Shown here: positions 2,334-44,704 of the stretch, piece by piece
Layout of the letters: each line of letters begins with the position of its first letter
Position numbering within the stretch: position 1 is the first letter of the stretch
From: Acidobacteriota bacterium
GTDB lineage: Bacteria > Acidobacteriota > Blastocatellia > Pyrinomonadales > Pyrinomonadaceae
Direction of reading: 5' to 3'
Assembly: GCA_021323895.1 (NCBI GenBank)
Contig: JAJPKD010000059.1
Span: 1-50,619, forward strand
DNA: 50,619 nucleotides
Position numbers and translations under genes: made by a program
The notes under the pieces: model-generated
Seen by the model: only the letters and a program-made list of their open reading frames with translations
Told to the model about the DNA's origin: nothing
The model's database searches: none

Positions 2334-2668
2334 CTCATAAGGGTCAGTACCGCGAGCGTTAGTGCGTGGTGTCAGAACCCGGAGCGATCGCGACAAAATC
2401 ATGTGGTTTCCAGGAAGCGGGTGATGATCCGCTCGCTATCGCTCGTAGTACCGACACTCGGCTCGATCGGTTTTGCGAAAAATTCCTCACGCCTAATATC
2501 AGTTGCGCGATTTTCCCCGAGGCAACCGAGCAACTTCCAAAATTCCCCCGAAATTTCAGCAAATCTTTGCCGGCACCCCCGTGGCCTTCCGCTTGCACTA
2601 AGCCCTCGCTCGTGTTCGTACTGATTAATTTGCGCACTCCATTGAACTCAAAGCCAGAGGAAGAATTC
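2334..2668. other. Intergenic region upstream of ric
   Basis: This 335-base gap holds the inverted-repeat element at 2343-2455 and then an AC-rich, gene-free stretch that should carry the promoter of the ric operon. I saw no clear FNR-type palindrome or near-consensus -35/-10 pair. An open frame runs in from 2366, but its first hundred codons translate repeat DNA and have no family resemblance. Confidence 0.5.
2343..2455. repeat. Dispersed inverted-repeat element, copy 1
   Basis: The outer arms (2343-2361 and 2426-2455) are imperfect reverse complements, beginning GTCAGTACCGCGAGCG and ending CGCTCGTAGTACCGAC. An inner piece at 2371-2404 resembles 20440-20473 inside the RND pump gene. Arms of the same kind recur at 41098-41182. 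The element has no coding capacity of its own and behaves like a REP/MITE-type dispersed repeat. Confidence 0.7.
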
Positions 2669-3388
2669 ATGTTACTTGATCCAAACAAAACTGTAGGCGA
2701 ACTCGCGGTCGCCATTCCCAGCGTCACCCGCGTTTTCGAAAAAACGAAGATCGATTACTGCTGCGGCGGCGATCAATTGCTGGGAGATGCCTGGTCAAAA
2801 GCCGGCGTTGATTTGAATCTGTTGGAGGAGTTGTTGGCGACGACGGTCGAACCTGCTTCGGACACGAACATCAATTTTCAGCAGATGACGCTAATTGAGT
2901 TAATCAGTTACATCCTGGACAAACACCACGTTTATACGAAGCAGGAAATGGATCGGCTGGAATCGCTGGTCACCAAAGTGGTCGGCGCGCATGGCGCGAA
3001 TCATTCTGAATTACTGACGATCCGCGATCTGCTTCAGCAACTGTTCACCGAATTGAAAGGCCACATGTTCAAAGAAGAGCAGATCCTATTTCCGTTCGTT
3101 GTCGAATTGGAACAGTCAGTTCTGCAGAATCGTCCGGCGCCGTTCGCTCCCTTCGGTACGGTCAATAATCCCATTCGCATGATGATGTTCGAGCACGATA
3201 ACGCGGGCGAAATTCTGCGCGAGCTGCGCAAGTTGAGCGGCGATTACAAACTGCCTGCGGACGCGTGCATGAGCTACCAGACGTTCTATCAGGCGCTGGA
3301 AGCGTTCGAACAGGATCTGCATCAGCACATTCATCTGGAGAACAATATTTTGTTTCCTACGACCATTGCTCTGGAGGCCAGAAACTAA
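2669..3388 (+). CDS. ric: Iron-sulfur cluster repair di-iron protein (RIC/ScdA/YtfE)
   Basis: A 239-residue member of the ScdA/YtfE family, which repairs Fe-S clusters damaged by nitric oxide or oxidants. Residues 1-55 form the ScdA N-terminal domain with the diagnostic YCCGG motif. The rest is a hemerythrin-like four-helix bundle with the expected His and Glu ligands (DKHH, GAHGANH, GHMFKEE, FEHDNAG, HQHIHLENN). The ATG at 2669 was chosen because the domain begins there and a GAGGAAG ribosome site precedes it; the longer frame from 2366 translates repeat DNA. The next gene begins 2 bases after the stop, and norZ follows, so the setting points to nitrosative-stress defence. Confidence 0.92.
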   Translation: MLLDPNKTVGELAVAIPSVTRVFEKTKIDYCCGGDQLLGDAWSKAGVDLNLLEELLATTVEPASDTNINFQQMTLIELISYILDKHHVYTKQEMDRLESLVTKVVGAHGANHSELLTIRDLLQQLFTELKGHMFKEEQILFPFVVELEQSVLQNRPAPFAPFGTVNNPIRMMMFEHDNAGEILRELRKLSGDYKLPADACMSYQTFYQALEAFEQDLHQHIHLENNILFPTTIALEARN

Positions 3389-43289: not shown

Positions 43290-43324
43290 AAGAGCGATTT
43301 TCCAATCCAACCAATGGGGGTTTT

Positions 43325-43798
43325 ATGAAAAGCGCTGCCCGCTTGCCACGTGCCCTCAAAGACAACCTGGTGATCCGCGAATTGGATGACGAGACACTCG
43401 TCTATGACACCGAACGCGACGAAGCCCATTGCCTGAATTATGCTGCGGCGCAGGTCTGGAAACTGTGCGATGGCAACACCACGGTCGCGCAAGCTTCACG
43501 AGTCTTGCAGAGCCGGCTTGATTCGAAGATCGATGCCGACTTTGTCTGGTTAGCGGTAAAGCAACTTCAGAAGTTTCATCTCGTCGAGCGCGATGCAAAG
43601 TCCCCGTCAGTCTCGCGACGTGATCTGGTTTTGAAGTACGCGCCATTGGCGCTCGCGTTGCCCGTGATCATGTCGATCAGCGCGCCAACACCAGCACAGG
43701 CGGCGAGTTGCGCCATGAGTGGCCAGGCATGCGGCGCCATTCCATGTTGTCCGGGACAAGGTTTGGTCTGCTTCTCCGGCACCTGTCGTCTCGGTTAG
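43325..43798 (+). CDS. PqqD-domain protein fused to Tat signal and six-Cys knottin-like tail
   Basis: The 157-residue protein has three parts. Residues 5-92 are a PqqD-like domain ('DDETLVYDTERDEAHCLNYA', 'VWKLCDG', 'LQKFHLVER'), the fold used as RiPP recognition element. Residues 97-127 contain a twin-arginine motif SRRDLVLK, a hydrophobic stretch and an A-Q-A cleavage-like site. Residues 128-157 carry six cysteines at 129, 136, 141, 142, 149 and 154 in the order C-x6-C-x4-CC-x6-C-x4-C, an inhibitor-cystine-knot pattern. It looks like a self-contained precursor: carrier domain, export signal and disulfide mini-protein. A glycosyltransferase gene follows 57 bases later. The function is unknown. 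Confidence 0.8.
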   Translation: MKSAARLPRALKDNLVIRELDDETLVYDTERDEAHCLNYAAAQVWKLCDGNTTVAQASRVLQSRLDSKIDADFVWLAVKQLQKFHLVERDAKSPSVSRRDLVLKYAPLALALPVIMSISAPTPAQAASCAMSGQACGAIPCCPGQGLVCFSGTCRLG

Positions 43799-43855: not shown

Positions 43856-44704
43856 ATGAGCGAGTTGCGCGCGCCAATATCTGTAATCATTCCAGCGCAC
43901 AATGAGGAGCGATTCATTGAAGAAGCGATTCACAGTGTTTTGGCGCAGACCCTTTCGGTCTCGGAAATAATCGTCGTCGCCGACGATTGCGTTGATCAAA
44001 CAAAAGATATCGCGCTGAAACTAGGGGCAACTGTATTATCACAGAACCGATGTAACATGGCCGCGGGACTGAACCTCGTCATTACTGCCAGCACGCAACC
44101 ATGGATCGCGTTGCTGGACGCAGACGATTTCTGGGACAAGGACAAGATCGCCCTCCAATGGGAAGCGATTGAGTCGTTTCCCGGCGTTGGCATTGTATCT
44201 TGCGATGTTTCGATCATCTCTGACAACGGACTCGCTACGACTCCTCCTCGACATCTAAGAGAGCGATGGGCCAGCGCTAGCGAAATTGTTATTAAATATG
44301 ATGATTATTATTCGGTGGAGAAGGTCGACGGTGATCTGCTCGTTAACGTCTTCTTAGCCACTCCTGCGGTCGTCTTGTCTCGGGATGTCTTTTCAACTGT
44401 TGGGCAATTTGATGAGGCTTTGCTTTTCGGGCAGACACTTGAGTTTTTCGCTCGCGTTCTCGCGCGTTATCCGCTCGCCTATGTGCAAAGGCCGCTCGTT
44501 TTCCAACGAGTCCATGATAAGAATCACACGCTGAATGTAGAGAGCACCTGGAGCTCATATGTATTGATTGTCGATCGAATGCTTAAAAATCCTGACCTAT
44601 ATCCGCGTGGCGCAGGACAAGCGTATCGCGAACGTTTGAAGCGCGATTTTCTTGAGACTGAGCGCGTACTGGCGACGCGCGCAGCGAACGTTAGGCGAGT
44701 TTGA
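43856..44704 (+). CDS. Family-2 glycosyltransferase
   Basis: The 282-residue GT-A protein has 'ISVIIPAHNEERFIEEAIHSVL' at the start, 'VADDC' near residue 44 and the metal-binding LLDADDFW near 86. A middle region with 'FLATPAVVLSRDVF' and 'GQTLEFFARV' contains the acceptor side. No membrane helix is present. It follows the PqqD-knottin gene and may modify that product or a surface glycan; the link is by position only. Confidence 0.85.
   Translation: MSELRAPISVIIPAHNEERFIEEAIHSVLAQTLSVSEIIVVADDCVDQTKDIALKLGATVLSQNRCNMAAGLNLVITASTQPWIALLDADDFWDKDKIALQWEAIESFPGVGIVSCDVSIISDNGLATTPPRHLRERWASASEIVIKYDDYYSVEKVDGDLLVNVFLATPAVVLSRDVFSTVGQFDEALLFGQTLEFFARVLARYPLAYVQRPLVFQRVHDKNHTLNVESTWSSYVLIVDRMLKNPDLYPRGAGQAYRERLKRDFLETERVLATRAANVRRV

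Follow-up and report, generated by a model that had tools for sequence, protein, structure and literature searches.

RREs usually occur as separate proteins or as parts of modifying enzymes. Lasso-peptide tailoring offers a case in which a serine receives a phosphate from an HPr-kinase homologue, and hexoses are attached to that phosphate by a nucleotidyltransferase (PMC8498205). We describe here a gene from an Acidobacteriota bacterium (Pyrinomonadaceae; assembly GCA_021323895.1, contig JAJPKD010000059.1, of which the whole stretch of 50,619 nucleotides analysed is referred to as the window) whose product carries a PqqD domain, a twin-arginine (RR) motif, a hydrophobic stretch and a six-cysteine tail in one chain, an arrangement that had been read from the DNA letters and was confirmed by translation and by Pfam. 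In a search made mostly outside the subscription literature we found no description of the PqqD–RR–cysteine-tail architecture, and the gene belongs to a large and real family which is apparently undescribed as far as the accessible literature goes.

The precursor gene and its parts

The features of the locus, with the evidence for each, are:

43325..43798, + strand: precursor gene; the open reading frame translates to 157 aa plus stop, with no internal stop
43316..43320, + strand: GGGGG, a likely ribosome-binding site 4 bases 5' of the ATG (sequence)
43346..43603, + strand: PqqD / predicted RRE domain, residues 8–93 (PF05402, AlphaFold, structure comparison)
43613..43636, + strand: twin-arginine motif SRRDLVLK, residues 97–104 (RR conservation; TatC in genome)
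43637..43693, + strand: hydrophobic export stretch with the near-invariant prolines P113 and P121 (155-member alignment)
43694..43702, + strand: putative signal peptidase I cleavage site, AQA at residues 124–126, with the predicted cut before A127 (conservation)
43703..43795, + strand: six-cysteine tail of 31 aa, residues 127–157, predicted knottin (AlphaFold, Foldseek)
43856..44704, + strand: GT2 glycosyltransferase gene 57 bases 3' of the precursor, a possible partner (PF00535, E 7.5e-24)

The Pfam PqqD profile (PF05402) matches residues 23–66 at 25.7 bits against a cut-off of 23.4, and the best NCBIfam match for the protein is the PqqD-like ScmD, which is sub-threshold. The tail cysteines follow exactly the pattern C-x6-C-x4-CC-x6-C-x4-C in the translated reading frame, as the sequence-only reading had claimed, but the predicted mature form is 31 residues long and not the 30 given there. 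Promoters and terminators around the gene were no more frequent than expected by chance.

Size and distribution of the family

We collected 155 non-redundant homologues, mostly from the Blastocatellia and Pyrinomonadaceae (Acidobacteriota) with the remainder from MAGs named as other phyla (collections were scanned with a closer set of homologues, alignment A1 being too divergent for scanning). The full architecture was found in at least one copy in 35/60 relatives and in 88 of the 147 genomes drawn from the class, with 43 matches in genome G032 and at least 25 in G101, while the window genome itself carries a second copy which is 50% identical and ends in the tail SCLPGGQQCGTSAQCCSGLCSDGICAST. 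A scan of named genomes gave 78 loci, chiefly from Pyrinomonadaceae, Blastocatellia and other Acidobacteriota, with a few in MAGs labelled Gemmatimonadetes, Methylomirabilota, Chloroflexi/Anaerolineae, Myxococcales and Betaproteobacteria where binning errors are possible. No relative was found in viral_contigs, and a phage origin was rejected for this reason.

The PqqD profile matched all 54 of the aligned members, and every PqqD match in G000, G002, G026 and G034 (the window genome is among these four) proved to be a family member. A query made from the PqqD part alone retrieved almost exclusively homologues with the extension, the exceptions being copies broken by stop codons, cases at contig edges, and one or two short reading frames. 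A search for PqqD proteins with a cysteine tail had been put forward as a check on the architecture, and as homologues retain both the tail and the RR pair, the contrary outcome named in advance, loss of either, was absent.

The predicted export signal

Strict RR, with S, N or T on its N-terminal side and hydrophobic residues on its C-terminal side, is what Tat demands, whereas positive charge is enough for Sec. In the family the RR pair is invariant (155/155 members) and is preceded by S, N or T in 144/155, the two prolines in the hydrophobic stretch are near-invariant across the same 155 members, and around the predicted cleavage site position −1 is A in 123/155 and position −3 is A, V or I in 132/155. 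The Tat-type sequence features (S/T-R-R-x-hydrophobic-hydrophobic-K/R, a hydrophobic stretch and an AxA site) are thus present, and the genome encodes TatC. From these sequence features we infer the use of Tat rather than Sec, with a probable signal peptidase cut after AQA. It should be noted that the motif lies about 97 residues from the N-terminus, an internal position which is unusual for a Tat signal, and that the Pfam TAT_signal profile (PF10518) matches 2/54 members, weakly (best 0.009). It is also a point against the scheme proposed below that Tat normally exports folded proteins, while the disulfides here would form outside.

Predicted structures of the PqqD domain and tail

The PqqD domain is predicted to have an RRE fold which is closest to that of the lasso-peptide B1 proteins. 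In the full-length AlphaFold model (mean pLDDT 88.8, and about 95 for the PqqD part) the RRE part has the order beta-beta-beta-alpha-alpha-alpha, with strands at residues 15–19, 23–28 and 33–38 and helices at 39–47, 54–65 and 71–83, and residues 115–119 are also modelled as a strand, for which no partner was seen. The best structural match is the lasso-peptide RRE TbiB1 (5v1v), with an rmsd of 2.3 over 84 residues and a VIA Z of 9.2, tied by 6jx3 as an RRE match (VIA Z 9.2), and the PhoP DNA-binding domain falls below the RREs with Z 4.9.

The tail is predicted to form an inhibitor-cystine-knot fold with its six cysteines in C-C-CC-C-C order; the disulfide pairing of knottins is I–IV, II–V and III–VI. 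Modelled alone it reaches a pLDDT of 91, and knottins and cyclotides make up nearly all of what Foldseek retrieves for it, with poor E-values for a chain this short. It superposes on asteropsin G with an rmsd of 1.0 A over 28 residues and on huwentoxin-IV with 1.4 A over 30 residues, and the tail profile reaches animal knottins with E down to 1.5e-6, mainly via the cysteine spacing. The tail stays separate from the PqqD domain in the model; a merged tail was the structural outcome that had been said to count against the proposal.

Cysteine content and divergence of the tail

Tail lengths run from 7 to 143 aa, and charged residues are scarce in the tails. The number of tail cysteines is even in 153/155 members (6 in 70, 8 in 35, and up to 22), with a binomial p of about 5e-43 from a calculation that ignores relatedness; when each spacing pattern is counted once, even numbers are found in 134 of 136 distinct patterns. 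For Gly, Ser, Thr, Pro, Ala, Asn and Gln, about half of the tails have an even count, and the two odd-cysteine members look frameshifted or truncated (L195 includes an ambiguous base and L112 an unrelated end sequence). The near-universal even count therefore strongly suggests the pairing of all tail cysteines in what are predicted to be disulfides. Four tails have zero cysteines, with cysteine-free homologues at L160, L190 and L192, which is a point against the reading favoured below. At L192, two members with cysteine-free Ser/Thr/Gly repeat tails (39-758 and 2580-3194, + strand) adjoin an HPr-kinase-like gene, and sugar or phosphate might be attached to these two members.

The leader is conserved and the tail is hypervariable, and we make no claim of positive selection. 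In the syntenic copy in G004, identity to the window protein is 76% in the PqqD part, 94% in the signal and 43% in the tail, with the neighbouring GT2 49% identical and the outer neighbours 81–85%. Across 23 independent pairs, dN was 0.13 for PqqD, 0.16 for the signal and 0.62 for the tail (shared cysteines excluded from the tail) at similar dS (1.4, 1.4 and 1.6, respectively), giving dN/dS values of 0.09, 0.12 and 0.39, in which the contrast between the parts is firm and the absolute ratios are not because dS is near saturation. We also note that L043 (6517-7014) and L044 (6331-6903) have PqqD parts which are 90% identical and tails with 6 and 8 cysteines, respectively, and offer a natural test of framework change.

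Genes associated with the family

In a recurrent gene order the precursor follows the gene of an HPr-kinase-like protein and is itself followed by that of a PF14907 nucleotidyltransferase. This operon was seen at many loci, including MAGs named Gemmatimonadota and Chloroflexi, and often within polysaccharide loci with sugar transferases and an O-antigen ligase. The kinase or the nucleotidyltransferase is two genes away or less in 58/78 named loci, and both are in 38/78. Among the relatives, the kinase is present in 33/35 family-positive and 0/25 negative genomes (Fisher 7e-15) and the PF14907 subtype in 34/35 and 2/25, respectively, and because these genomes are related the association p-values overstate independence. 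The kinase-less positives are G013, where the operon is cut by a contig end, and G035, a 71%-complete genome. Walker-A and DxD active-site motifs are conserved in the kinase and nucleotidyltransferase, and the kinase matches NCBIfam TIGR04352 (E 1.6e-16 and 3.1e-14) at 53–60 bits against a cut-off of 200.

In the window genome both enzymes are encoded on other contigs (C249 and C40), apart from the window precursor. G032 has one adjacent kinase/nucleotidyltransferase pair with no precursor in between (L102:6244-8024) and its 43 precursors elsewhere, which is the layout one would predict were every precursor to carry a docking domain of its own. The C-terminal serine targeted by the lasso kinase is mostly absent from the family tails and is not conserved; position 128, just after the predicted cut, is S or T in 125/155 members and is a candidate tailoring site. 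A conserved leader, a variable core and adjoining or co-occurring modifying enzymes are the marks of a RiPP precursor, and all are found here, with the kinase and nucleotidyltransferase as the putative modifying enzymes; we provisionally regard the family as a RiPP-like precursor variant.

Other neighbours were also seen. A C25 peptidase (gingipain/PorU-like) often follows the precursor, with a related cluster in 17 of about 60 loci (examples are L033:2540-5602 and L054:4018-8388, both on the − strand). A protein of about 430 aa and unknown function adjoins family members or lies one gene away (L040:293-1642, + strand; L041:4017-5294, − strand; L062:4803-6113, − strand; also L137, L148, L156 and L181), and the L041 copy has a weak C-terminal PqqD-like match (E 0.009). 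Several G032 copies (L072, L073, L075; L079, L081, L091) have neighbours that suggest sensed expression: an apparent pair made up of a sigma factor and a large kinase-like protein, or else a histidine kinase of two-component, beta-propeller type together with a LuxR regulator.

The sequence-only reading had proposed a self-leading secreted disulfide peptide, possibly glycosylated by the product of the next gene. The invariant RR, conserved AxA, even cysteine counts, and predicted RRE fold and knottin tail lend good support to the peptide itself. The case for its glycosylation by the next gene's product is weak: outside the window, a related GT2 gene adjoins a family member in just two species (G004, and L199 at 36% identity), which is suggestive and too little to assign it as a partner. 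The kinase and nucleotidyltransferase could still mean phospho-glycosylation of the tail by analogy with the lasso peptides, and the window copy, as an orphan paralogue beside the GT2 gene, would need tailoring enzymes in trans.

Proposed mechanism and alternative explanations

On balance we favour a secreted disulfide mini-protein with an RRE in cis, tailoring by shared enzymes, Tat export, a signal peptidase cut and cystine-knot oxidation. The N-terminal PqqD domain would offer the C-terminal tail of its own chain to cytoplasmic enzymes that the precursors share, the likeliest being the HPr-kinase-like protein and PF14907 nucleotidyltransferase that co-occur with the family; we propose such RRE-guided tailoring in the cytoplasm because enzymes of the same types modify serine in lasso peptides, and on that precedent a serine would be phosphorylated and then glycosylated. 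The twin-arginine signal would insert the chain with the PqqD domain staying inside, signal peptidase would cut after AQA to free the tail, and the freed tail would be oxidised to an inhibitor cystine knot. The architecture, RR and cleavage-motif conservation, even cysteine counts, tail hypervariability, predicted folds and gene association are computed results, and from these we infer the disulfide pairing, the tailoring and its target residue.

The tail might instead be secreted as a disulfide mini-protein that receives no tailoring, with the PqqD domain serving in the cytoplasm as no more than a chaperone, a plug or a targeting unit, while the two enzymes act elsewhere, e.g. on polysaccharide. 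Oxidation alone would suffice for tail folding and the canonical operons do sit in the polysaccharide loci described above, but we consider this unlikely as the kinase and nucleotidyltransferase are almost confined to family-bearing genomes, a single pair accompanies the 43 precursors of G032, and the same enzyme types act on RRE-associated lasso peptides. Near-perfect even cysteine counts and the confident knottin model make it highly improbable that the product is a bufferin-like metal-binding export product rather than a disulfide knot, even though the tails are cysteine-rich and an RRE with a signal-peptide precursor also occurs in the DUF2282/DUF2063 systems (PMC12710340).

The remaining explanations give the PqqD domain a different role. 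RRE folds resemble winged helices (the PhoP match has Z 4.9) and the genes next to some G032 copies include sigma-factor/kinase pairs or a two-component propeller kinase, so the protein could be a membrane-tethered sensor with a cytoplasmic winged-helix-like PqqD domain binding DNA or a partner, the RR stretch as a transmembrane anchor, and an uncleaved periplasmic cysteine-rich sensor. This is very unlikely given the clearly better RRE matches (Z 9.2), the conserved AxA cleavage residues and strict RR, and the diverse even-cysteine tails which fit a secreted product. PqqD/RRE domains do usually act in trans, and with ScmD as the best NCBIfam match the domain could serve another peptide (lasso or radical-SAM RiPP) with the tail incidental; we disfavour this and give it hardly any weight, as the tail is near-universal in homologues, up to 43 diversified copies are found in one genome, and the lasso B2 protease family is missing from the window genome and six tested relatives.

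Taking the tailored and exported mini-protein further, we tentatively suggest, while holding the larger claim to be somewhat doubtful, a new class of Tat-exported bacterial knottin RiPPs, widespread in Acidobacteriota, in which the fused recognition domain lets one enzyme pair phospho-glycosylate dozens of tails. If true, a cis RRE would travel with its substrate and one enzyme set could serve an open-ended repertoire. Two tailoring enzymes of lasso type would be tied to a non-lasso product, and nature would have supplied in this family a large collection of knottin-like scaffolds of bacterial origin, which differ in cysteine framework and come from lineages with many uncultured members.

Comparison with known systems

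The penultimate position of a lasso leader is Thr, or rarely Ile, and in the family position 125, the penultimate residue ahead of the predicted cut, holds chiefly Q, L, A, M, H or E. The lasso B2 leader protease (PF13471) is absent from G000, G002, G004, G014, G026, G032 and G034, i.e. the window genome and most tested relatives, and we therefore rejected a lasso peptide identity. The family shares the RRE (B1), HPr-kinase homologue and nucleotidyltransferase with the lasso tailoring set (e.g. of paeninodin and pseudomycoidin), but differs in having the RRE fused to its own substrate, a Tat-type signal and a cysteine-rich tail in place of a lasso core. The HPr-rel-A system (TIGR04352 kinase and TIGR04353 PqqD) likewise has a related kinase beside a PqqD protein in polysaccharide loci, whereas the family kinase scores well below the TIGR04352 cut-off and the family PqqD protein is extended by the Tat-type signal and the tail.

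Animal and plant knottins (asteropsin G, huwentoxin-IV, hainantoxin-IV and the cyclotides) have the same six-cysteine C-C-CC-C-C pattern and a fold like that predicted for the tail, but the family is bacterial with a PqqD and RR leader, and the likeness lies mainly in cysteine spacing and is most likely convergent. An origin of the asteropsins in sponge symbionts, an idea raised by the PDB match, was set aside in favour of convergence, which is likelier because the Stryphnus study (PMC13418204) reports that another sponge-knottin family is ribosomal and of sponge origin. Finally, the DUF2063/DUF2282 systems (PMC12710340) also combine an RRE with a signal-peptide precursor, with the RRE in trans and a Sec signal in those systems, and the RRE in cis and an RR-type signal in the family described here.
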